A stretch of 36,588 nt of DNA, taken from an uncultured Verrucomicrobia subdivision 3 bacterium. Lineage in GTDB: Bacteria; Verrucomicrobiota; Verrucomicrobiia; Limisphaerales; UBA11358. Numbering within the stretch: the first letter of the stretch is position 1; every line of letters starts with the position of its first letter. The stretch lies in contig CAINLR010000110.1 of the NCBI GenBank assembly GCA_903850425.1, forward strand, positions 1 through 36,588, written 5' to 3'. This document shows, in pieces, positions 2,697 to 14,895 of this stretch. The notes under the pieces are model-generated. The model saw nothing but the letters and a program-made list of their open reading frames with translations, searched no databases and was not told the DNA's origin. A program made the translations under genes and the position numbers.

Positions 2697-3515
2697 TCAA
2701 GTTTTTCCCCGCTGCCGGTTCACTTCGTAGAGAAACACGGCGGCGGCGGCACTGACGTTGAGCGAATCCACCTCATTCAGCATCGTAATCGCCACTGCCT
2801 CGTCACACGCAGCCAGCACGGGCGCGGAAAGGCCGTGGCCTTCGCTGCCGAAAACCAGACAGCAGTCGCCGGAAAAATCCGCGCGCGATAAAACCTTTCC
2901 GTCCGGGCGCGGATGCGCGGCGACGCAGCGGATGCCTTGCGCGCGCAACTCGCACAGCGTCTGCGCGAGATTTATGGATTCCAGCACGGGCAGTTTGAAC
3001 AGCGCGCCCATCGAGTTGCGGACGGTGCGGCGCAGAAACAGGCTGCTGCACGTTTCGCCCGCGATCAACGCCGACACGCCCAAGGCCACGCAGTTGCGCA
3101 TGAGCGCCCCGACGTTTTCCGCATTGGACAACCCGTCCATCGCCACCAAAAAATGCGGCCGCGGACTGGTCGTGAGAATGGTTTCCAAAGTCAGCGCCGC
3201 CGGCATTTTGGCGATGGCCAGCACGCCTTGATAAATTTCGAACCCGACCAGTTGTGCCATCACCGCTTTATCGCAGACGAACAAAGTGATGAGGCTTTCG
3301 GTTCGCGCCCGCAATCGTGTTTCGAATTCAGCCCGTCGTTCCTCGGTCAACAGCACCGAGACCACCGTGAAATCGCTGTCCAGCAGGCGGTGTAGCACCT
3401 TGTCGCCTTCCACCACGAAAATACCGAGCGCCGCGTGTTCCCGCGAACGCTTGAGCGTGCGATACGGTGCGAGCTCCGGCAAATCCAGCGAGGAAATGTT
3501 TGCGAGGCGGAGCAT
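2697..3515 (-). CDS. TrmH/SpoU-family RNA 2'-O-methyltransferase
   Basis: The 272-residue protein carries the three SPOUT motifs in order: motif 1 NAENVGALMRNC, motif 2 FGSEGHGLS and motif 3 VDSLNVSAAAAVFLYE. These form the trefoil knot that binds S-adenosylmethionine. The N-terminal 100 residues (RSREHAALGIFVVEGDKVLHRLL...) resemble the L30e-like substrate-binding domain of RlmB/TsnR-type enzymes. It should methylate a ribose in rRNA or tRNA; the exact nucleotide cannot be inferred. An upstream in-frame start at 3779 would overlap the previous gene by 260 bases, so ATG 3515 was chosen. It begins two bases after the stop of the hydrolase gene, which implies co-transcription. Confidence 0.9.
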   Translation of the reverse strand: MLRLANISSLDLPELAPYRTLKRSREHAALGIFVVEGDKVLHRLLDSDFTVVSVLLTEERRAEFETRLRARTESLITLFVCDKAVMAQLVGFEIYQGVLAIAKMPAALTLETILTTSPRPHFLVAMDGLSNAENVGALMRNCVALGVSALIAGETCSSLFLRRTVRNSMGALFKLPVLESINLAQTLCELRAQGIRCVAAHPRPDGKVLSRADFSGDCCLVFGSEGHGLSAPVLAACDEAVAITMLNEVDSLNVSAAAAVFLYEVNRQRGKT

Positions 3516-3517
3516 GC

Positions 3518-4300
3518 TTACAATTCCAGCGTCCCGCACGGCACCTCTTGCGCGGCGATTTGCATCTGGACGTGCTGCGCGCCGATGTGATGAAGCTGTT
3601 CGGCCATGACGTGGTGCGCCAGTTCGGGCTTGTTGCACTCGCGGCTCAAGTGCGCGAGGTAAAGATGTTTCAATTCGGCGGACATAATTTGCGCCACGGT
3701 TTCGGCGGCGGTCACATTGGAAATGTGGCCATGCCGGCCAAGAATGCGCTGCTTCAAGGCCCACGAGCGACGCGGACAATCCTGCAGCATCTTGACGTCG
3801 TGATTGGATTCGAGCACGAGCACATTCGCGGTGCGGATGCGTTCGAGCACGAGCTTGGTAACGTGACCAAGGTCGGTGGCAAAACCGAAATTGCCGGCGG
3901 CGGTGCGGATCAGATAGCCGACCGGATCCTGGGCATCGTGCGGAATGGCGAAGGAGTCCACGCGGGTATCGGCGATTTCAAAGCTCGCGCCGGTGTCGAA
4001 GAGATGGCAGGTGAATTTTTTCTGCAATTGAAATTCAAACGCGTCCTTCGTGGCGCGGTTGCAATAAATCGGGATGTTCAGCTTCTGCGCGATGCCGTTG
4101 AGGCCGGCGATGTGGTCGCTGTGTTCGTGCGTGATTAAAATGGCGGTGAGATTTTCCGGCGTGCGGCCAATGGTGGCGAGGCGCAGGCGGATCTGACGCG
4201 GGGAAAAGCCGGCGTCCACGAGGATGCGCGCTTCGGCGGTTTCCAGGTAGGCGCAATTGCCGCTGGAACCGCTGCCAAGGATGGTGAATTTGACGGACAC
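3518..4300 (-). CDS. MBL-fold metallo-hydrolase, WalJ/YycJ-like
   Basis: The product starts VSVKFTILGSGSSGNC, the hallmark N-terminus of the WalJ/YycJ group. It then has the metal-binding signature THEHSDH, followed by further metal ligands in the metallo-beta-lactamase fold (IPHDAQDP, GFATDLGHV, ESNHD, LAHLSRECN). Such proteins are predicted zinc-dependent phosphodiesterases or exonucleases; the true substrate here is unknown. GTG at 4300 gives 260 residues and the normal family N-terminus. A TTG at 4357 would add 19 atypical residues. No clear ribosome-binding site favours either start. It is transcribed ahead of the SpoU methyltransferase with a two-base gap. Confidence 0.85.
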   Translation of the reverse strand: MSVKFTILGSGSSGNCAYLETAEARILVDAGFSPRQIRLRLATIGRTPENLTAILITHEHSDHIAGLNGIAQKLNIPIYCNRATKDAFEFQLQKKFTCHLFDTGASFEIADTRVDSFAIPHDAQDPVGYLIRTAAGNFGFATDLGHVTKLVLERIRTANVLVLESNHDVKMLQDCPRRSWALKQRILGRHGHISNVTAAETVAQIMSAELKHLYLAHLSRECNKPELAHHVMAEQLHHIGAQHVQMQIAAQEVPCGTLEL

Positions 4301-4460
4301 GAGGAGGACGTTAATGGCCGGCTGGCGCGTGGGCAAATTCTTTTGTGCCGAGGCCAATTGACTTGGCGAAAAAGCTCCCTATTTTAGGCGGATTGCCGGT
4401 CGGGCAATTTTTGGAATGCGGCGTGCTTCTGCCAGCAGAGGCGCGTCAGAAATTTGAATC

Positions 4461-7400
4461 ATGTTGTCGAATCGTAGATTTTTAGCAGCTTTTACCATGC
4501 TCGGCTGGTTCTGGGCTTTCGGCACCGCTCCCGTTCTCGGCGCGGGTTGGAAAACTTTGCCGGGCCATGTGCCGTCCGTGATCCACCGGCTGGCCGCGCG
4601 CGGCGCGTTGCCGGCGACGAATGAATTGCGGCTAGCCATTGGCCTGCCGTTGCGGGACGCCGCCGGGCTGGACCAATTTCTGGCCGGGGTCAGTGATCCG
4701 GCGAGTCCGCATTTCCGGCAGTATCTGACGCCCGAAGAATTCACCGCACGGTTCGGACCGACCGAGGCGGATTACGCGGCGGTCACAACGTTTGCGCTGG
4801 CCAACGGGCTGACTATCACCGCGACGCACCGCAACCGGCTGGTGCTGGACGTGCGTGGCCGGGCGGCACAGGTGGAACGCGCATTTCATGTGCGCCTGCA
4901 AAAGTTCCAGCATCCGCGGGAAGCGCGCGAATTTTTTGCGCCCGATGGCGAGCCGAGCGTGGCGGATTTCCTGCCGGTGGCTGACGTGGCCGGCCTGACC
5001 GATTATGAGCGGCCGCATTCAAAACTGCATCCGGCCGCGGCGGCGGTCACGGTGGCCAAGGCTGCTCCGAAGTCAGGCTCCGGTGCGGGGGGCAATTATG
5101 CCGGGAGCGACTTTCGCAATGCCTATGCGGCCGGCACTTCGTTGACCGGCGCGGGCCAAATGGTCGGCCTGTTGCAGTTCGACGGATTTTATACCAACGA
5201 CATCAGCGCGTATGAAGACCTTATGCCCGGCCCGCCGCGCGTGCCCATCGAGACGGTGTTGCTGGACGGTTTCAACGGCGTGCCCACGGCGGGGGCGAAC
5301 AACGGCAATGCCGAAGTTTCGCTCGACATCGAAATCGCCATCGCGATGGCGCCGGGGCTGGCGAAAATCGTGGTCTTTGAAGCGCCGTCACTCGGCGGGC
5401 AACCCAATGACATTCTCAATGCCATGGCGGCGCGGAGTGAAATCAAAAATCTGAGCTGCTCCTGGGGTTGGAGCGGCCAGCAAAATGCCACCACGGAAAA
5501 TATTTTCAAGCAAATGGCGGCGCAGGGACAGTCCTTCTTCAACGCGTCGGGTGACAGCGCGGCGTTCACGGCGGGGCAAGTGGATGATCCAACGCAAGCC
5601 AATAATCCTTCCGCCAGTCCCAATATCACCCAGGTGGGCGGGACCGTGTTGCAGATGAATGGCCCGGGCGATTCCTACGCTTCGGAGGCGGTCTGGAATT
5701 CCGGCGGCGGCACCGGCAGCGGCGGCGGCGTCAGTTCCGCCAATTCGATTCCCGCCTGGCAACAAGGTCTGGACATGACCGCCAATCATGGTTCCACAAC
5801 GGGCCGCAATCTCCCGGACGTGGCCATGGTGGCCGAAAGTGTTTATGTCGCCTACGGCAACGGGGGCAACGGCGCATTCGTTGGCACCAGTTGCGCTGCC
5901 CCGCTATGGGCGGGCTTCATGGCGCTGGTCAATCAACAGGCCGCCGCAGCGGGTAATCCCCCCGCCGGCTTTGTCAATCCCGCCATCTATGCGCTGGGCC
6001 GGAGCGCGGACTACCATCTCTATTTTCACGACACGACTGCGGGTGACAATACCCGGCCCGGTAGTCCGACCAATTTTCCCGCCACTACCGGCTACGATCT
6101 TTGCACCGGTTGGGGCACGCCCAACGGCACCAACCTGATCTCTGCGCTGGCGGCGTTGAACCTCTCAACTCACTTGGCCGATGTCGTCCGGCCGACCGTG
6201 AGTATCATCAGCCCCGTCAACAATCTGAAATGGAGCAATGATGTATTCTCCGTCAGCGGCACGGCGGGCGACAATGTCGCCGTATCAAATGTATTCTATT
6301 CGGCGAACGGCGCGGATTGGGGCATCGCCACAACCGTCGGGCATGGTGCCAGTTGGTCGGCCAATGTGGCGCTCACCCCGGGCACCAACACCATTCAAGC
6401 TTATGTCCAGGATACCAGCGGCAATTACTCCATGACCAATCGGGTGAGTTTGATCTGTATTTTGAGTGCGCCCTTGGCGGTCAGCACGAATGGACGTGGG
6501 AGTATCAGCCCGAGCTACAATGGCGCAAGGTTGCAACTTGGCGCAAACTATGCGCTCACCGCCACGGCGGCCGCGGGCTTCAAGTTTACCGGTTGGCTGG
6601 ACGCCGAGGGGCAGGTGGTGACGAATAGTCCCGCGCTCAAGTTTCTCATGACGTCCAACTTGGCGTTCACCGCGAACTTTGCGGACATTGCCAAACCGAC
6701 CAATGCGATTCTCGCACCGCTGGCCAATCAACGATGGAGCAATGCCGTATTCACGGTTGCCGGCAAGGCGAGCGACAATGTCGGCGTGGCGAACGTATTC
6801 TACTCTTTGAACGGTGCGGATTGGACCCCGACCACCAACACAACTGGCTGGAGTAACTGGACGGCGGGAGTAACCCTGACGCCGGGCACCAACCTCATTC
6901 AAACCTATGCGATGGATGGAGCGGGCAACTTATCCACTACCAACCGAGTTAGCTTGGTCTATATCGTGAGTGCGCCCTTGATTGTCCGCACGAATGGACG
7001 CGGCAGTATCAGTCCGACCTACAATGGTGCTAGGCTTCAGGTCGGTGCGAACTATACGCTGACCGCCATAGCCGCAACCGGTTTCAAGTTTACCGGTTGG
7101 ACCGATGGAGATGGTCTGCTGCTGACTAATCGCGCGGCGCTCACCTTCATGATGGCGTCCAATCTGGCTTTCACGGCCAACTTTGTGGATGTCACTAAAC
7201 CGACGCTGAGTATTGTCAAGCCAGTGAACAATCAGAAAGGGAGCAATTATCTTTGCACCCTCAGCGGCAAGGCGATTGACAACGTCACGGTGACGAATGT
7301 TTTCTACTCATTGAACGGTGGCGCTTGGAGCCGTTCCTTGACGGCCGACAACTGGACTAACTGGACCGCGCAGGTCAGCCTCGTGCCGGGAACGAATACC

Positions 7401-8534
7401 CTCGCGGTCTGCGCCGTGGATATGGCCGGAAACCGCTCGGCGACCAACCAGGTGAGCTTTGTATATGTCTTTGCGCTGGGCGGAACATGGAATGTGGTGC
7501 AATTGCAGACCCCCAGCCAGATGACTTTGACTACGAGCGCTGGGCTGGCGGGCGGCAGGTCTTTTGGTGCGACTAACGGCACGCTCAGTTTTAATGCCGA
7601 TGGCACTTTGAACGGTCAGTTTGAAGATCCCTTCACCGGAACTTATGTGCCAGGCAGCAACGGCCTGGTGGCCACCACCATCGTGACTTCCGCCGCCACG
7701 AACTATTTCAACCTGTTCATCAATGCCAGCCAAGATACCATGACTTTGGTGGATGCCCAACGGGATGAAAGCAATAACCAGCAGGAACTGCTGATGTTCC
7801 AACGTGCGCCGACGACCAATACATTGGGCAGCCTGGCGGGGGCTTGGAATGTGGTGCAATGGCAGACACCCGGACAAGTGGCTTGGGACGAAGTCAACGG
7901 CCTGCAAGGTGGCGATCAATTCAGCGCGACCAAAGGTAGTCTGGTCTTGAATGTCAATGGCACGCTCAGTGGAAATCTGGGTGGCGCGTTTACGGGAAGC
8001 TATCGCCTCGGCAGTAATGGCGTGGTCAATCTGGCTACCGTTGCCGGTGGCCAGACCAATACTCACACTCTATTCGTGAACGCCAGTCGCAACGCGATGG
8101 CGCTGGTCGAAGGTCCGCTCGATGGGAGTGACCCTTCGCAACAAATAACTTTGTTTCAGCGAATGCCCTTGTTTGTATTACCCACGGATCCCGCAGGTTT
8201 GTGGAGTCTGGTGCAGTTGCGGACGCCGGCGCAGTTGTCCGGGGATGCGATCAATGGACTGCAAGGCGGCGGCAATTTTGGCGCGGCCAGCGGCTCGGTG
8301 CGGTTCAATGCTAATGGCACCATTACCGGCAACTTGAATGGCGCGTTCGCTGGAATCTACCAAACTGGCAACGCTGGCGTAATCAAACTCACGCTCATGA
8401 CCGGAAGCGCGACCAACTCCATCATCGTGTATCTCAACGCCAGCAAGGATGCCATGATGGGTGTGGCCAGCCGGTTTGACCACCAGCAGAATGATCAGCA
8501 ACTACTCTTGTTGCAGCGCGTGCCGGCCAATTGA
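4461..8534 (+). CDS. Secreted S53 peptidase (sedolisin/kumamolisin type) with long repeat tail
   Basis: The 1357-residue precursor starts with a signal peptide (about 1-28, LAAFTMLGWFWAFGTAPVLGA). An activation prodomain follows to about 190, with the family text SPHFRQYLTPEEFTARFGP. In the catalytic domain the S53 residues are visible: Glu285 and Asp289 (EVSLD), oxyanion Asp365 (NASGDS) and nucleophile Ser477 (GTSCAAP). A calcium-site region DLCTGWGTPNG comes later. The S53 family uses a Ser-Glu-Asp triad and works best in acid. The tail, about 573-1005, alternates three Ig-like units and two divergent InlB-type units (GFKFTGW...). Residues 1007-1357 hold three copies of an unrecognised unit of about 110 residues (W(N/S)(V/L)VQ...TP.Q). 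The tail may bind substrate or surface. It sits in tandem with its paralog. Confidence 0.92.
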   Translation: MLSNRRFLAAFTMLGWFWAFGTAPVLGAGWKTLPGHVPSVIHRLAARGALPATNELRLAIGLPLRDAAGLDQFLAGVSDPASPHFRQYLTPEEFTARFGPTEADYAAVTTFALANGLTITATHRNRLVLDVRGRAAQVERAFHVRLQKFQHPREAREFFAPDGEPSVADFLPVADVAGLTDYERPHSKLHPAAAAVTVAKAAPKSGSGAGGNYAGSDFRNAYAAGTSLTGAGQMVGLLQFDGFYTNDISAYEDLMPGPPRVPIETVLLDGFNGVPTAGANNGNAEVSLDIEIAIAMAPGLAKIVVFEAPSLGGQPNDILNAMAARSEIKNLSCSWGWSGQQNATTENIFKQMAAQGQSFFNASGDSAAFTAGQVDDPTQANNPSASPNITQVGGTVLQMNGPGDSYASEAVWNSGGGTGSGGGVSSANSIPAWQQGLDMTANHGSTTGRNLPDVAMVAESVYVAYGNGGNGAFVGTSCAAPLWAGFMALVNQQAAAAGNPPAGFVNPAIYALGRSADYHLYFHDTTAGDNTRPGSPTNFPATTGYDLCTGWGTPNGTNLISALAALNLSTHLADVVRPTVSIISPVNNLKWSNDVFSVSGTAGDNVAVSNVFYSANGADWGIATTVGHGASWSANVALTPGTNTIQAYVQDTSGNYSMTNRVSLICILSAPLAVSTNGRGSISPSYNGARLQLGANYALTATAAAGFKFTGWLDAEGQVVTNSPALKFLMTSNLAFTANFADIAKPTNAILAPLANQRWSNAVFTVAGKASDNVGVANVFYSLNGADWTPTTNTTGWSNWTAGVTLTPGTNLIQTYAMDGAGNLSTTNRVSLVYIVSAPLIVRTNGRGSISPTYNGARLQVGANYTLTAIAATGFKFTGWTDGDGLLLTNRAALTFMMASNLAFTANFVDVTKPTLSIVKPVNNQKGSNYLCTLSGKAIDNVTVTNVFYSLNGGAWSRSLTADNWTNWTAQVSLVPGTNTLAVCAVDMAGNRSATNQVSFVYVFALGGTWNVVQLQTPSQMTLTTSAGLAGGRSFGATNGTLSFNADGTLNGQFEDPFTGTYVPGSNGLVATTIVTSAATNYFNLFINASQDTMTLVDAQRDESNNQQELLMFQRAPTTNTLGSLAGAWNVVQWQTPGQVAWDEVNGLQGGDQFSATKGSLVLNVNGTLSGNLGGAFTGSYRLGSNGVVNLATVAGGQTNTHTLFVNASRNAMALVEGPLDGSDPSQQITLFQRMPLFVLPTDPAGLWSLVQLRTPAQLSGDAINGLQGGGNFGAASGSVRFNANGTITGNLNGAFAGIYQTGNAGVIKLTLMTGSATNSIIVYLNASKDAMMGVASRFDHQQNDQQLLLLQRVPAN
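7476..8531 (+). repeat. Three tandem copies of an unrecognised ~110-residue domain in the S53 tail
   Basis: Copies begin near residues 1007, 1126 and 1245 of the first S53 peptidase. Shared positions include W(N/S)(V/L)VQ, a TP.Q pair, a GL.GG(..)F segment, a G(T/S)L.(F/L)N..GT(L/I) segment, a G.Y..G..G(L/V) turn, an N(A/.)S..(A/T)M segment and a closing LFQR.P. The order suggests an all-beta fold with a repeated hairpin. I do not recognise it as a named domain. Copies differ at many positions, so the duplication is not recent. Confidence 0.75.
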
Positions 8535-8673: not shown

Positions 8674-11600
8674 ATGGTATCAGTCGAATTTTCTATGTCC
8701 GATAAAAGCCGTCCTTTCCGGATTTGCGCCGCACTCAGTCTGCTCTGGGTGCTGGGCTGGGCCCCGGTGCTCGGCGCGGACTGGCAGACCTTGCGCGGGC
8801 ATGTTCCGGCCGTGACGCGCCGGTTGGCGGCGACCGGACGGCTGGCCGCCACCAATCAATTGCGGCTGGCCATCGGCCTGCCGCTGCGCGACCCAGCGGG
8901 TTTGGAAACATGGCTCGCGGCAGTGTATGATCCGGCCAGTCCCCAATTCCGTAAATTTCTGACGCCGGCGGAGTTCACTGCGCGGTTCGGCCCGACCGCA
9001 GCCGACTATGCCGCCGTCAGGAATTTTGCACGGACGAACGGACTGCGTATCGCCGGCACATATGACAACCGGCTGCTGCTGGACGTGGTGGGTTCTGCGG
9101 CGCTGGTGGAGAAAGCTTTTCACATTTCGCTACGAACCTATCGGCATCCCACCGAGGCCCGCAATTTTTTTGCGCCCGACGCCGAACCAACCGTGGCGGG
9201 TAACTTGCCGCTGGTGGATGTCAGCGGGCTGGAAAATTTTTCGCGGCCACATCCGAAAGTTCGCCTGGTTGAGGCTTTGACCATGCGACCTCAAACAGCG
9301 GGGTCCAAGGGAGCTGGTTCCGGCCCGCTCTTCAATGGCTTTGCCACTTATGTCGGTGCGGATTTTCGCCACGCCTATGCGCCGGGCACGACCTTGGACG
9401 GCATCGGGCAGATGGTCGGACTGGTGCAGTTTGACGGGCATTATGCGAGCGACATTACTAACTATGAACATGTGGCTGGCCTGCCAAATGTGCCCATTGA
9501 AACCGTTTTGCTGGACAGTTTTGACGGTAGTTCCGGCGACGGCAACATCGAAGTCTCCTTGGATATCGAGATGGCGATTTCGATGGCGCCTGGACTCGCC
9601 CAGGTGGTGGTCTTCGAGGCCGGGCCGGATGGGATTCCCAACGATGTTCTGAATGCCATGGCGGCGCGCAGTCAGATCAAGAATTTGAGTTGCTCCTGGG
9701 GCTGGGCCGGCGGGCCGGATGCCACCACCGAAAATATTTTTTTGCAGATGGCCGCGCAGGGACAATCCTTTTTCAACGCGTCTGGCGACAGCGATGCCTT
9801 CCTACCCGGGTTGGTGGATAATCCGGGCTACGAGGGTTCGCCTTCCAGCAGTCCCAACATCACGCAAGTCGGCGGCACCGCTCTCTCCATGAATGGCGGA
9901 GGGGCCATGTTTGATTCAGAAGTGGTTTGGAACCGGGGCGGGGGTATCGGCAGCAGCGGCGGCGTCAGCTCCGATCATGCGCTTCCGGCCTGGCAGCAGG
10001 GGATCAATTCTTTTTTGACTCATGGCGGCTCGACGACGCACCGGAATATTCCCGACGTGGCCATGGTGGCGGACAATGTCTATGTCTTTTACGCCAATGG
10101 CGTCGGCGCACCGGTCGGCGGCACCAGTTGCGCTGCGCCGTTGTGGGCGGGTTTCATGGCACTGGTGAATCAGCAGGCGGCGGCCAGCGGCAAACCGCCG
10201 GCCGGCCTTATTAATCCGGCCATCTATGAAATCGCCAACGCGTCAGGTTACAACGCTGCTTTTCATGACACCACCGTCGGCGACACCACTTGGGCCTCCA
10301 GTCCGAACGTGTTCTACGCCGGCTCAGGTTATGACCTCTGCACCGGCCTCGGCTCGCCCACGGGAACGAACTTAATCAATGCCTTGCTGAAACCGGATCC
10401 GCTAATTGTGATTTCTAATTACGGGTTCACCGCCTTCGTTTCACCAGCGGGAGCATTCGATCTCAAGACGCAAACTTTTTTGCTGACCAATGCCGGGGCC
10501 ACTCCGCTCAACTGGTCGCTCCTCAACCCGGCGGCGTGGCTGATGGCCTCGACAAGCAACGGCACGCTCGCCGACGGAGCCAGCCAAACCGTGGAGGTCA
10601 GACTGAGCAACGCCGCCAGCAACCTGACCGCCGGGATTTATTCTACCAGCCTCTGGTTCTCGAATGTCACCAGCGGCGTGGCGCATGCCCGTTTTTTTAC
10701 GTTGCAAGTGAGCGACCCGCTGGTGCTGCTGCCAACAAACCAATTTTCTTTCAGCGGTGCCGTGGGCGGACCGTTTGCGCCGGCGTCCCAGGAATTGAGT
10801 TTGACCAATGCCCGCGCCGGCACTTTGAATTGGGGCATCAACCATACCTCCGCTTGGATTAATGTATCACCGACGAGCGGAAGTATTACGTCTGGCACAT
10901 CTCCCACCGTGACCTTCACGCTCACGCCAGCCGCCACACACTTGTCCGCCGGAATTTACCCGGCGACTTTTCTGGTGACCAATTTGCTCAGCCAGCAGGT
11001 GCAACCAGTCACGGCCCAAATTCGGGTGGGCCAGTCGCTCCTATCCAACGGCGGTTTTGAAACCGGCGATTTCACCGGCTGGACGCTCTTGGGCAACACC
11101 GTCGGCGGCGGATCCGTTTTCAACGCGGTCGAGACGGATTTTAATTTCCCCGGAGTGGTGCATGCGGGCATCTACGGTGCGTTTCTCGGCGATACCCAGT
11201 TGGCCACCCTTTCGCAAGCGCTCCTCACGATTCCGGGCCAAGACTATTTGATTTCAGGATGGCTGCACAATCCGGTGAGCGGCCCGGAGCAGATCTTTCT
11301 CGTCAATGCGAACACCAACCCTCCGGCCACCCACCAGGTTTGTTATCTCTCCAACCCGCCGGTGTTGGCCTGGACCAATCTGACGTTTGTGGTCACTGCG
11401 ACCGGCACGAATACCGTCCTTCAGATTGCAGCTAAAAATGAGCCTGACTTTTTCGGCCTCGACGACATCGCCGTCACCCCCATTCCCCGGCCATCGTTCA
11501 CCCTCGTCAATCAGACGACCAATGCTTTTATTTTCAGTTGGAACTCACTCGCCGGCCTCGTCTATCAGGTGCAATACCGGACGAATTTGCTCCAAGCCGG

Positions 11601-11709
11601 CTGGCTCGACCTGGGCAGTCCCATTCCCGCGACTGCCGACACGACCAGTCTCACCAACCACTTCGGCCCGGAGCCGCAACGCTACTATCGCGTCCGCCAG
11701 TTGCCGTGA
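8674..11709 (+). CDS. Secreted S53 peptidase, paralog with BACON-like and CBM-like tail
   Basis: This second S53 precursor (1011 residues) has a signal peptide (ALSLLWVLGWAPVLGA), the same prodomain text (SPQFRKFLTPAEFTARFGP) and the same catalytic set: Glu293, Asp297, Asp372 and Ser485. The catalytic half aligns along its whole length with the preceding gene, so the pair arose by tandem duplication. The tail differs. Two units from about 574 to 785 have BACON-like text (LNWSL...AAWL, LNWGINHTSAWINVSPTSGSI). About 788-935 is a jelly-roll like carbohydrate-binding module (LLSNGGFETGDFTGWTLLG). The last 70 residues form a small beta unit ending YYRVRQLP. ATG 8695 is an alternative start that would shorten the signal peptide. 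The gap to the first gene is 139 bases without a clear terminator. Confidence 0.92.
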   Translation: MVSVEFSMSDKSRPFRICAALSLLWVLGWAPVLGADWQTLRGHVPAVTRRLAATGRLAATNQLRLAIGLPLRDPAGLETWLAAVYDPASPQFRKFLTPAEFTARFGPTAADYAAVRNFARTNGLRIAGTYDNRLLLDVVGSAALVEKAFHISLRTYRHPTEARNFFAPDAEPTVAGNLPLVDVSGLENFSRPHPKVRLVEALTMRPQTAGSKGAGSGPLFNGFATYVGADFRHAYAPGTTLDGIGQMVGLVQFDGHYASDITNYEHVAGLPNVPIETVLLDSFDGSSGDGNIEVSLDIEMAISMAPGLAQVVVFEAGPDGIPNDVLNAMAARSQIKNLSCSWGWAGGPDATTENIFLQMAAQGQSFFNASGDSDAFLPGLVDNPGYEGSPSSSPNITQVGGTALSMNGGGAMFDSEVVWNRGGGIGSSGGVSSDHALPAWQQGINSFLTHGGSTTHRNIPDVAMVADNVYVFYANGVGAPVGGTSCAAPLWAGFMALVNQQAAASGKPPAGLINPAIYEIANASGYNAAFHDTTVGDTTWASSPNVFYAGSGYDLCTGLGSPTGTNLINALLKPDPLIVISNYGFTAFVSPAGAFDLKTQTFLLTNAGATPLNWSLLNPAAWLMASTSNGTLADGASQTVEVRLSNAASNLTAGIYSTSLWFSNVTSGVAHARFFTLQVSDPLVLLPTNQFSFSGAVGGPFAPASQELSLTNARAGTLNWGINHTSAWINVSPTSGSITSGTSPTVTFTLTPAATHLSAGIYPATFLVTNLLSQQVQPVTAQIRVGQSLLSNGGFETGDFTGWTLLGNTVGGGSVFNAVETDFNFPGVVHAGIYGAFLGDTQLATLSQALLTIPGQDYLISGWLHNPVSGPEQIFLVNANTNPPATHQVCYLSNPPVLAWTNLTFVVTATGTNTVLQIAAKNEPDFFGLDDIAVTPIPRPSFTLVNQTTNAFIFSWNSLAGLVYQVQYRTNLLQAGWLDLGSPIPATADTTSLTNHFGPEPQRYYRVRQLP

Positions 11710-12021
11710 AGCTATTGCAACTTTTTTGAAACAAAAGCCCCGGTTGCTGGGTTATGTAGGCAAGATATGAATAGATTTCACGCGAAGCCAAAATTGAATC
11801 CGGTGTGCAAACTGCGCCAGTCGTTGCCGACTTTGCCCTTGATTTTGCCGGCCAGCGCCCAGGTCGGGACCAAGCTTCCGCTCCTGGCACTGGACCCGAA
11901 ACTCGGGTCGGCGGCCCCGGCGACGCAAGGCGGCGGTTTGATTTCGTTATGCAAGAATTTTGCATTCAGCAATCTGTTTTAACGAGTATCGTTTCCGAAC
12001 AGTTACGGTCACGGCCCGGCC
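11710..12021. other. Intergenic region before the ECF sigma operon
   Basis: The 312 bases contain only short frames (for example 11767-11982) whose products match nothing I know and lack a ribosome-binding site, so no gene is called. A promoter for the sigma operon is expected here. A segment just before the start (gtatcgtttccgaacag, 11986-12002) cannot be assigned to a promoter class by eye. Confidence 0.4.
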
Positions 12022-12555
12022 ATGACAGATGCGCAACAGTTCGAGACGTTCATGCGAAACTACCAGAACATGGTGTTTAGCACGGCCATGCGTTTGCTCG
12101 CCAACCAATCCGAAGCCGAAGATGTGACGCAGGAAGTTTTCCTCAAAGCGCACGCGCATTTTGACAACCTGGATGGCAATCCCTCGGCGGGCGGGTGGCT
12201 CAAGACGGTGGCGACGAATTTGAGCCTGAACCATCTCTCCCGCTACCGCTCGCGCTGGAGTTTTTTCTCAGAACTCTTCGGCGGCCACGAGGAGCCGCAG
12301 GAACCGGATTTTCCGGCGGAGGACAATGTGGAAGAGGCCCTGCTCAAAACGGAACGTTGCGCACTGGTCGAGCAGGCCTTGCAGGAACTGCCGCCCGCAC
12401 AACGCGTGCCGCTGGTGCTGTTTCACCTGGACGAACTCGGCTACGAGGAAATTGCCGCGAAGCTGAACGTGTCGCTGGGCAAAGTGAAGACGGATATTTT
12501 TCGCGGCCGCGAAGTGCTGCGGCGGAAACTCCGGCTGAAGTTGAGCGTGGAATAA
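12022..12555 (+). CDS. ECF-type RNA polymerase sigma factor
   Basis: The product is 177 residues, normal for this class. Region 2 covers about 8-75 (FMRNYQNMVFSTAMRLLANQSEAEDVTQEVFLKA, then GGWLKTVATNLSLNHLSR). A short acidic linker follows. Region 4 covers about 115-172 (ALQELPPAQRVPLVLFHLDELGYEEIAAKLNVSLGKVKTDIFRGREVLRRKL) with its helix-turn-helix that reads the -35 element. ECF factors direct core polymerase to stress or envelope genes and are usually held by a membrane anti-sigma factor encoded next door. Here the next gene, 16 bases downstream, is a small membrane protein that fits that role. Confidence 0.95.
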   Translation: MTDAQQFETFMRNYQNMVFSTAMRLLANQSEAEDVTQEVFLKAHAHFDNLDGNPSAGGWLKTVATNLSLNHLSRYRSRWSFFSELFGGHEEPQEPDFPAEDNVEEALLKTERCALVEQALQELPPAQRVPLVLFHLDELGYEEIAAKLNVSLGKVKTDIFRGREVLRRKLRLKLSVE

Positions 12556-12571
12556 AAATCAATTTGACCCC

Positions 12572-13051
12572 ATGAATTCAAATCGCGACCAGCAACTGGA
12601 ATCACTCATCAGCCAGGAGTTGCAGGCACTGCCGGAACTGACCGCGCCGGCGGCGGTGGCGGACCGTGTCATGGCGAGCATCTCCCAGCGCCGGCCGGTT
12701 TCGTGGTATCGCCGCTCCTGGGCCACCTGGCCGGTGGCTTTGCGGGTGGCCTCATTCGCCGTCATGGTGGCGCTGTTCGGCGGGCTCTGTGCCGCCGGCT
12801 GGGGATTTTCGCACTCGGAAGCCTATTCGCAGGCGCTGCATCGCGGTGGCCATTGGTTCTCCGGCTTCGGCATGTTTGGCAATGTTTTGAGCACCTTGGC
12901 GGATTCGGCGGTGCTCGTGGTGAAGCACCTTGGCACGGTCTTTATCGTCGCCTGCCTGGTCGCCGCCGGTCTGGGCTATGCGCTCTTTCTCAGTTTGGGA
13001 ACGGTCTATTTCCGCCTGGCCTTTGCCAAATCTCAACCCGCTCATTTATGA
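12572..13051 (+). CDS. Small membrane protein, probable anti-sigma factor
   Basis: The 159-residue protein has a soluble N-terminal segment (DQQLESLISQELQALPELTAPAAVADRVMASI) like the cytoplasmic part of many verrucomicrobial anti-sigma proteins. One hydrophobic segment lies at about 52-72 and a second, longer one at about 105-150. No HxxxCxxC zinc motif is present, so it is not a ZAS-type anti-sigma factor. The role is inferred from position directly after the ECF sigma gene and from topology. Its TGA overlaps the ATG of the next gene (ATGA at 13048-13051), so translation of the two is likely coupled. Confidence 0.65.
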   Translation: MNSNRDQQLESLISQELQALPELTAPAAVADRVMASISQRRPVSWYRRSWATWPVALRVASFAVMVALFGGLCAAGWGFSHSEAYSQALHRGGHWFSGFGMFGNVLSTLADSAVLVVKHLGTVFIVACLVAAGLGYALFLSLGTVYFRLAFAKSQPAHL

Positions 13052-14745
13052 AAATCAGCCGAAAAATCCTGACGGTTTTAATTCTATCGCTTTTGGTCCT
13101 ACCACGGCTGCCAGTAATGGCACAGGGCGCAACCGCTGCCACAACCAGTGTCGAAACGGCCGAGGTGGCGACAGCGGTGTCCAATGCGCCACCGGTTTCG
13201 GTGAGCATCGAAGTAGCCACGAAAAAGAAGACCGTTTTTGGCGTTCGCATTAACAGCTCCAATCATTCGGAGCCGATGGTGATGTTCGGACAGAACGCGG
13301 AATTGAAAGCCGGTGAAACGGCCGAGGCGGTGGTGGTTTTCGGTGGTTCTGCCAAGGTCCATGGCAAGGTGCGGGATGCCGTCGTGGTGATTGGCGGCAG
13401 TGCGGAGGTGGATGGTGAGGTGGACGATGCGGTCGTGGCCATTTTTGGGAATGTTCATCTCCAGCCAGGCGCGGTCATTCATCACGATGCGGTTGCGGTC
13501 ATGGGATCCGTTACGGCCGGACCGGAAACACAAGTTAACGGCGATGCCGTCGCGATCGGCGGGAAATTGGAAATTGAGGATGGTGCCACCGTGAAAGGCG
13601 ACAAAGTGAACGTGAGTTTACCGCCGCCGTTTTCCGATTTTGGCTGGCTGCGCGACTGGTTCCGGTATTGCGCGCTTGAATTCCGTCCGCTCGCCCCGCA
13701 AGTCCCCTTCGTCTGGATCATTGCCGCGGTCTTCTTCCTGATTTACTTGCTGATCGCATTGGTGTTTCCGGGTGCGGTTACGACGTGCGTGGACGACTTG
13801 AACCGGCGGCCCGCCACCACATTTTTCATGGGCCTGCTAACCAAACTGCTCGTCCCGTTTGTGTATTTGATCCTGGCGGCCACGGGTGTGGGCTTGATCG
13901 TGACGCCGTTTATCTGGGTGGCGCTGCTGCTGTGCGCCATCGTCGGCAAGGTGGCCATTCTGCAATGGATCGGTTTCCGAATCGGACGCCCCTTTGGCGG
14001 TGGGTTTCAAACCCCGTTGCTGGCCTTTCTGCTGGGCATCTTCCTCCTCACGCTGCTTTACCTGGTGCCGGTCGTCGGCCTGTTGACCTACATCCTGCTG
14101 GGCGTTTGGGGCCTGGGTTGCGGCGTCAGCACGGCCTTCGCTCGGCTGCGCCGCGAAACGCCGGACAAACCAATTGGACGGCCGCCGCAGTTTGCCGACG
14201 CGCCGGGGTCAACGATGGCTCCGCCTACCGTCAATCCCGGCACTGCGCCCACCACGGGAACGGAAGCAACGTCAGAGGCCGCCGCTGCGTTTGGCACTGG
14301 GTCGTCAGCAACGCCAGCATCGCCGCCGCCCGCCAGCGCGCCGGTGGCACTTCCCGCGGCGGCCTCGTTTCCCAAAGCTGGTTTTTGGGAGCGCGTGTGT
14401 GCTGCCTTGTTGGACACCATTCTGATCGGGGTGCTAGTGACCATCACGTCCACCGGCTCGCTTTTCTTGATTGTCGCGCTGGCTTACTACGCGGGCATGT
14501 GGACGTGGCGCGGAACCACCATCGGCGGCATCCTGCTCAAATTGCAGGTGGTCCGGACGGACGGGCGTCCGCTGACCTTCGTCGTCGCGCTGGTGCGTGG
14601 ATTGGCAGCGGCCTTTTCCGTGGTAATTTTCTTCCTCGGCTTCCTCTGGATCGCATGGGACAAGGACAGCCAGGGCTGGCACGATAAAATTGCGGGAACC
14701 GATGTCATCCGGCTACCGCGTTCAATGCCGCTGGTGATGTTGTGA
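13048..14745 (+). CDS. Bactofilin-like repeat and RDD-domain membrane protein
   Basis: The 565-residue protein begins with a signal sequence (KILTVLILSLLVLPRLPVMAQG). About 78-190 is a run of short beta-helix-like repeats (AVVVFGGSAKVHGKV, AVVVIGGSAEVDGEV, AVAVMGSV, DAVAIGGKLEIEDGATV) resembling polymer-forming/bactofilin modules. Four to five membrane segments follow from about 214 to 365, then an Ala/Pro/Thr-rich linker to about 440. An RDD domain closes the protein (FWERVCAALLDTIL ... GGILLKLQVVRTDGRPL ... WDKDSQGWHDKIAGT). RDD proteins are multi-span membrane proteins, some linked to transport. ATG 13048 was chosen over the longer frame from 12703 because it yields a proper signal peptide. 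Likely envelope-located and part of the sigma regulon. Confidence 0.8.
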   Translation: MKISRKILTVLILSLLVLPRLPVMAQGATAATTSVETAEVATAVSNAPPVSVSIEVATKKKTVFGVRINSSNHSEPMVMFGQNAELKAGETAEAVVVFGGSAKVHGKVRDAVVVIGGSAEVDGEVDDAVVAIFGNVHLQPGAVIHHDAVAVMGSVTAGPETQVNGDAVAIGGKLEIEDGATVKGDKVNVSLPPPFSDFGWLRDWFRYCALEFRPLAPQVPFVWIIAAVFFLIYLLIALVFPGAVTTCVDDLNRRPATTFFMGLLTKLLVPFVYLILAATGVGLIVTPFIWVALLLCAIVGKVAILQWIGFRIGRPFGGGFQTPLLAFLLGIFLLTLLYLVPVVGLLTYILLGVWGLGCGVSTAFARLRRETPDKPIGRPPQFADAPGSTMAPPTVNPGTAPTTGTEATSEAAAAFGTGSSATPASPPPASAPVALPAAASFPKAGFWERVCAALLDTILIGVLVTITSTGSLFLIVALAYYAGMWTWRGTTIGGILLKLQVVRTDGRPLTFVVALVRGLAAAFSVVIFFLGFLWIAWDKDSQGWHDKIAGTDVIRLPRSMPLVML

Positions 14746-14759
14746 CAGCAGGATAAAAG

Positions 14760-14895
14760 CACCAAATTCCAAACTCCAAGCTCCAGAGAAATTTCAAGCG
14801 CCAAACTTCAAACGAACTCGTGACGATGGCTTGGGGCATGGTGTTTGAAAATTCTCCGGAGCTTGGAGGTTGGAGCTTGGAGTTGCTTGGAAACG
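14760..14895. repeat. Imperfect inverted repeat, CTCCAAGCTCC family
   Basis: A left arm rich in ccaaactccaagctcc (about 14762-14795) faces a right arm with gaaaattctccggagcttgg and further ggagcttgg units (about 14847-14890). The arms can form a long imperfect hairpin with a loop of about 50 bases. It fills most of the gap between the RDD gene and ispF and contains no open frame of interest. Confidence 0.6.

Follow-up and report, generated by a model that had tools for sequence, protein, structure and literature searches.

A conserved extracytoplasmic function sigma factor operon with a putative anti-sigma factor and a bactofilin-fold/RDD fusion protein in Verrucomicrobiota and other bacteria

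Introduction

The pairs RpoE-RseA of E. coli and SigW-RsiW of B. subtilis are the models for extracytoplasmic function (ECF) sigma factors and their membrane-bound anti-sigma factors. A three-gene locus resembling these pairs is described here for an uncultured Verrucomicrobia subdivision 3 bacterium (assembly GCA_903850425.1), in positions 1 to 36,588 of contig CAINLR010000110.1, which are called the window in the following. As in the model pairs, the gene for a protein with sigma2 and sigma4 domains precedes that for a membrane protein whose N-terminus is predicted to be cytoplasmic, an ECF-like motif is located upstream and envelope-like genes are candidate targets in relatives. In contrast to them, the putative anti-sigma factor has two transmembrane (TM) helices and a short N-terminus of about 53 residues with two predicted helices, and a third, almost always linked gene codes for a protein with a bactofilin-fold and an RDD domain. 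In the preferred reading, given a probability of roughly 0.55, an ECF sigma factor and its anti-sigma factor form a self-regulating module that responds to stress at the cell envelope (inner membrane), and the fusion protein most likely acts as an induced membrane effector.

Two further groups can be compared with the third protein. It shares an RDD domain with invariant R, D and D residues with the RDD protein of Halobacillus andaensis described in the available text of PMC5996927, but here this domain is the C-terminal end of a larger protein that is predicted to be exported and is encoded in a sigma operon. With the Psp/Lia/Toastrack systems, as far as the available text of PMC11237479 describes them, the locus has in common a beta-helix adjoining TM segments and one candidate target with a weak match to DUF4097, which that text groups with DUF2154 and DUF2807 as Toastrack; the text also discusses sigma-linked contexts of Toastrack. 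In contrast to these systems, no PspA, PspC or LiaF was recognised by Pfam among the three conserved genes and the beta-helix is bactofilin-like. Neither bactofilin nor RDD is mentioned in the main text of PMC11237479, in the parts available. Literature searches found no paper combining bactofilin and RDD; the available texts of PMC12288465, PMC10349175 and PMC11442865 contain bactofilin together with sigma factor terms.

Results and Discussion

The three-gene operon and its products

The operon consists of the following genes, the third of which is divided into five parts (aa, amino acids):

12022..12555, forward strand: ECF sigma factor, 177 aa, with sigma2 and sigma4 (Pfam and NCBIfam)
12572..13051, forward strand: putative anti-sigma factor, 159 aa (weak match to NF052375, AlphaFold2 model, positive-inside count)
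13048..14745, forward strand: fusion of signal peptide, bactofilin-fold beta-helix, five TM helices, linker and RDD domain, 565 aa, ATG at 13048
13048..13122, forward strand: signal peptide, residues 1-25, cleavage near VMA-Q by eye, helix 5-20 in the model
13276..13614, forward strand: right-handed beta-helix, predicted periplasmic, residues 77-189 (AlphaFold model, alignment with 6rib)
13705..14142, forward strand: five-TM domain, residues 220-365 (model, charge counts)
14143..14382, forward strand: Pro/Ala-rich linker, predicted cytoplasmic, residues 366-445, of which 386-421 mostly have a predicted local distance difference test (pLDDT) value <50
14383..14712, forward strand: RDD domain, residues 446-555 (Pfam, invariant residues)

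The stop codon of the sigma gene is separated by 16 bases from the start of the 159-aa gene, which overlaps the fusion gene by the 4 bases ATGA. Coordinates and spacings (16 and -4) of the operon proposed in a first-pass annotation of the window are therefore as claimed.

In the sigma factor, Pfam detected Sigma70_r2 (8e-16) at residues 11-76 and r4_2 (2.4e-15) at residues 115-164, with 38 residues between them. This agrees with the definition of an ECF sigma factor in the available text of PMC8103513, namely sigma2 and sigma4 alone with a linker of <50 residues. A numbered group matching this sigma factor may already be listed in the ECF reclassification; neither PMC8103513 nor PMC7406223 contains the words RDD, bactofilin or Verrucomicrob in its main text, in the parts available.

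No Pfam match was obtained for the 159-aa protein. Its match to the NCBIfam anti-sigma model NF052375 is weak (E 1.6e-5, 25 bits, cut-off 100), and 22 of the 64 relatives in the alignment match the same model with E <=0.01. According to the positive-inside count and the AlphaFold2 model (pLDDT 80.2, predicted template modelling score (pTM) 0.38), the N-terminus of about 53 residues is cytoplasmic and two TM helices follow with a loop of about 40 residues between them. Class I anti-sigma factors have an N-terminal helix domain (ASDI); here, two helices, 3-19 and 27-40, precede the first TM helix. Comparison of the model with PDB structures gave a best E of 5.0 and that of the profile with PDB sequences a best E of 0.12, nothing convincing in the latter. 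The label putative anti-sigma factor is based on position, topology and these weak NCBIfam matches.

The AlphaFold model of the fusion protein, based on 65 sequences (mean pLDDT 83.5, pTM 0.63), shows a signal helix, the beta-helix 77-189 and a helical block to residue 370, after which come a linker of low confidence and the RDD block (446-555). This bears out the beta-repeats, membrane helices, Pro/Ala linker and RDD domain read in the first pass and adds a preceding signal peptide. The description of the beta-repeats as bactofilin-like holds for the fold of the predicted model and fails at the Pfam cut-off. Using VIA-align, the beta-helix was superimposed on the Thermus thermophilus bactofilin 6rib with Z 14.6, a root mean square deviation of 1.4 over 97 residues and 27% identity, and on BacA (2n3d) with Z 11.9, where unrelated beta-helices begin near 10.8. 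Bactofilin (PF04519) scored 17.7 bits, below the cut-off of 27.9, and only 4 of the 65 family members have a match at E 0.01 or better; on the model, the label bactofilin is taken from the fold rather than from the Pfam cut-off. A Foldseek search with the whole model gave no row at E <=0.001 (2n3d: E 0.21), and the five-TM domain, for which Pfam found no match in the window protein and which the second look with VIA hardly covered, may yet have a known fold. The number of beta-helix turns seems variable: in one alignment, 90% or more of 74 sequences have no partner for residues 146-164 of the window protein, and a second alignment places its gaps elsewhere.

The first-pass annotation had left the side of the membrane open, and the prediction narrows it to the outside of the inner membrane. 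In the average of the 65 sequences, acidic residues prevail in the beta-helix (13.0 D/E versus 6.9 K/R), and K/R residues occur in loops 240-256 (2.4) and 305-322 (2.6), in the linker (4.3) and in 487-510 (3.8), with none in loops 280-283 and 340-344. By the positive-inside rule, this pattern fits a beta-helix outside and a linker inside, although in the linker D/E (4.1) nearly match K/R (4.3). The linker and the RDD domain are predicted to face or span the membrane. Signal peptide and membrane domain, which would place the beta-helix outside the inner membrane, distinguish the protein from bactofilins, which are cytoplasmic and self-polymerising; the predicted export argues against a cytoplasmic location.

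The RDD domain (PF06271) is detected with 2.5e-18 and 67.1 bits against a cut-off of 24.1. It is present at E 0.01 in 65 of 65 aligned members, so that the fusion, called unusual in the first pass, is ordinary within its own family. R449, D456 and D546 are invariant, and the spacing R449-D456 equals that of R35-D42 in the Halobacillus protein. Conservation of the domain and its three residues, together with the report of one RDD protein as a Na+(Li+,K+)/H+ antiporter in the available text of PMC5996927, would suit a plain ECF operon whose fusion protein is an RDD cation/proton antiporter with a structural beta-helix and whose response is ionic or osmotic, not one to envelope stress. In the same text, D154, R124, R129 and D158 are essential, whereas R35 and D42 are dispensable for antiport; the conserved R and D are consequently no proof of transport. 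As the candidate targets in relatives are also envelope-like, this explanation appears improbable.

Conservation and distribution of the operon

The own genome contains one full-length copy of the fusion and one RDD-only match. Within a phylum sample of 288 genomes, long fusion matches were found in 17 others, all belonging to one family (f5); matches with E of about 1e-6 to 1e-13, mostly covering the RDD part alone, were taken as other RDD proteins. In the order of the window, 102 of 196 genomes have a match at E 1e-15, some of them partial. The operon is patchy in the own genus, with a match in three of nine sampled genomes.

From the phylum and order searches, 79 loci, a subset of the matches, were fetched. 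A tblastn hit was obtained in all but L078 and L079 (25% matches), which were dropped, leaving 77. The order sigma factor, small membrane protein, fusion is present in 71 of the 77 loci, including two with short sigma frames (L090, 125 aa; L130, 162 aa), and the intergenic distances in conserved loci are mostly a few tens of bases (maximum 161). Among the six exceptions, L092 and L117 start at a contig edge and L100 and L125 are cut by one, with the small protein present. In L098 and L138 the upstream DNA is present and no intact sigma/anti-sigma pair was found beside the fusion, the remainder of those genomes not having been searched.

A single-sequence scan of genome contigs revealed no relative, whereas a profile scan yielded 518 confirmed loci, of which the best 80 on named contigs were analyzed. 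The sigma frame is present in 77, the small protein in 79 and the three-gene order in 77 of these 80; since the two locus sets share some contigs, their counts are not independent. L150, L155 and L207 are located at contig ends, and L145, L159 and L197 have short sigma frames. The neighbours, whose conservation the first-pass annotation had proposed to check, are thus kept in both sets, to an extent that exceeds chance. By record title, the hosts are Verrucomicrobiota (Limisphaerales/Pedosphaera, Opitutae), Gammaproteobacteria (Povalibacter, Steroidobacter, Peristeroidobacter) and metagenome-assembled genomes (MAGs) labelled Acidobacteria and Candidatus Aminicenantes. Hosts without a MAG label are Povalibacter uvarum DSM 26723, Peristeroidobacter soli JW-3, P. 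agariperforans KA5-B and Opitutaceae bacterium EW11. No conserved fourth gene was found after the operon beyond lineage synteny; the gene 3′ of it differs by lineage (by eye, e.g., PurE-like, LepA-like or IspG-like).

The near-constant linkage of the three genes would also fit the fusion as the sensor and third regulatory component, its periplasmic beta-helix reading the state of peptidoglycan or membrane and its membrane domain relaying the signal to the anti-sigma factor. The beta-helix, predicted to be exported, adjoins a multi-helix membrane domain, and the putative anti-sigma factor is predicted to expose only about 40 residues outside, which leaves little for sensing. L098 and L138, which keep the fusion without an intact pair alongside, favour an effector over a pure sensor, and the antiport reported for one RDD protein in the available text of PMC5996927 likewise suits an effector. 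We regard the sensor as the less likely role, though one to be taken seriously. A more specific version, in which an exported bactofilin-fold filament or patch tethered to the RDD domain is a mechanical or peptidoglycan sensor gating the anti-sigma factor, so that an extracytoplasmic "skeleton" is read as transcription, is speculative and rather unlikely.

In L098, the fusion lies at 3494-5419 of the oriented locus, and the sigma and anti-sigma matches upstream of it are short and weak, possibly a decay of the regulators.

A putative promoter motif upstream of the sigma gene

A free two-block search in 128 distinct 200-base upstream regions of the sigma gene detected GCAAC-N16-GTGT in 28 of them, whereas in three shuffled sets no such motif occurred more than 6 times. 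The looser pattern TGYAACT-N13..16-GTGTYC occurs in 31 of the 128 regions, with no occurrence in any of 50 shuffles or in the reversed form, and its hits include Gammaproteobacteria and an Acidobacteria contig. In the clade of the window, the element reads like TATGCAAsAnnTTTGC with a diverged -10-like part. TGCAA is located at exactly -66 in 9 of 19 upstream regions of this clade, elsewhere in 4 and absent in 6; in the window and in L081 it is found at -72. The corresponding feature is:

11948..11963, forward strand: putative autoregulatory promoter element TATGCAAGAATTTTGC, resembling in position the TGCAACT -35-like element of relatives

The sequence TATGCAANANNTTTGC matches the own genome once, at 11948, which is the operon's own, diverged site. 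Transcription from the motif and positive autoregulation of the operon would fit these data.

Candidate regulon in relatives

The strict motif TGCAACT-N14/15-GTGTTCT gave 15 sites in 16 genomes of family f5 (control: 0) and, in 200 f5 genomes including these 16, 57 sites in 45 genomes (reversed control: 2). Each of the 57 sites has a gene start within 94 bases. In total, 28 sites belong to sigma genes (27 by hidden Markov model, L241 by eye), 11 to membrane proteins of 84-119 residues, of which 8 begin with MKTFLK, 5 to short secreted-looking proteins (MKTA or MKTT) and 3 to others of similar size. The remaining sites belong to MacB-like permeases (4), DUF4252 (3), DUF4097 (1; weak match, 18.9 bits against a cut-off of 22.9), DUF4870 (1) and a signal peptidase (1). 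Target groups were assigned with Pfam for one example each and by eye for the remainder.

The MKTFLK...SPIW.PVL... family of small membrane proteins (L232, L246, L248, L255, L256, L259, L262, L266, L269, L270, L273) has no Pfam match in the one example searched. At 11 of its 11 sites the motif ends 6-14 bases before the ATG, which leaves very short or absent leaders.

In ten genomes to which named loci belong (contigs of Proteobacteria and Acidobacteria), 12 sites were found (control: 0), with 4 of the 10 lacking a match. Five of these sites are located at sigma genes and four, by eye, near secreted-looking proteins (L285, L287, L288, L289). L279 is near a TM2/zinc-ribbon protein, with TM2 not assigned by eye, L286 is by eye near an esterase-like gene and L283 near no clear gene. 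Reading 30 loci of the order-wide sites placed 7 at sigma genes and two at a GYF_2-domain membrane protein (L291, L294); several recurring sites among these 30 have no clear short-leader gene.

The fusion is present in 43 of the 45 site-bearing f5 genomes (32/34 plus 11). ECF -35 elements are alike, and the extra sites could belong to another ECF sigma factor with a similar promoter preference, so that the regulon would not be that of this system. G624, for example, has a DUF4252 site and no detected fusion, and about half of the tested site-less genomes carry the fusion. On the other side, the motif is the same as that upstream of this sigma gene, and of the 25 genomes that have a non-sigma site 24 contain the fusion, compared with 29 of 56 site-less genomes (Fisher p 8e-5; the test is uncorrected for relatedness, which inflates it). 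The 56 were examined out of 155 site-less genomes (23/50 plus six), the RDD-only match of G558 not being counted. A second sigma factor seems quite unlikely, and a regulon of envelope-like genes can be inferred from the relatives, not from the own genome.

A proposed autoregulated module for envelope stress

In the preferred reading, with the fusion as induced effector, the sigma factor would at rest be bound to the membrane by the cytoplasmic N-terminus of the 159-aa protein. Disturbance of the envelope would release it, and its own operon would be transcribed from a promoter of the TGCAACT-N14/15-GTGTTCT type, a motif seen by its conservation. In Opitutaceae-like relatives, where the enrichment of sites is observed, transcription by the sigma factor may extend to further genes, among them those of small membrane or secreted proteins, MacB-like permeases, DUF4252 and DUF4097. 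The fusion is predicted to be exported with its bactofilin-fold beta-helix outside the inner membrane, and the fusion may stabilise or re-balance the membrane; relief of the stress, or contact with the anti-sigma factor, would close the loop.

Several points weigh against this reading, in addition to the inflated Fisher test. The motif was discovered in the same upstream regions in which it was counted, and 97 of the 128 do not contain the looser pattern. The self site is the sole match in the own genome, so the regulon there could consist of the operon alone. The order-wide motif count is 50 against 21 in the control by our own tally, about 2.4-fold. Paired coevolution of the sigma factor with the 159-aa protein (mean-field direct coupling analysis, 131 pairs) gave a top score of 10.98, barely above the null maximum of 10.45 from 12 within-cluster shuffles, with gap-prone positions among the top pairs. 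For this analysis, 144 triads were used, 131 of them distinct over sigma residues 21-120, after exclusion of L090, L098, L130, L145, L159 and L197. Finally, the tight linkage of the three genes fits a sensor as well and would be compatible with a part of the fusion in feedback. Of the envelope-stress system suggested in the first pass, the envelope theme is thus supported by the candidate regulon in relatives, while the own genome contributes the self site alone.

Features flanking the operon

Directly 3′ of the operon, one further element was annotated:

14762..14880, strand not assigned: inverted repeat, 42 nt, 83% complementary, possible transcript end

The repeat is made of CCAAACTCCAAGCTCC-like units, with 3 unit matches (<=2 mismatches) in the window compared with 0.01 expected. 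No terminator-like site is listed at 14762-14880. Upstream of the operon, two large proteins that look secreted are encoded side by side at 4461-8534 and 8674-11709. Both have pro-kumamolisin activation domains (sedolisin-type peptidases), together with Ig-like and InlB-B repeats in one of them and BACON-like repeats in the other.

Implications

If the proposed module is correct, the promoter and a first regulon would be known for an ECF system that crosses phylum borders, and its parts could be tested. Furthermore, a bactofilin-fold domain would then be placed outside the cytoplasm and joined to an RDD domain.

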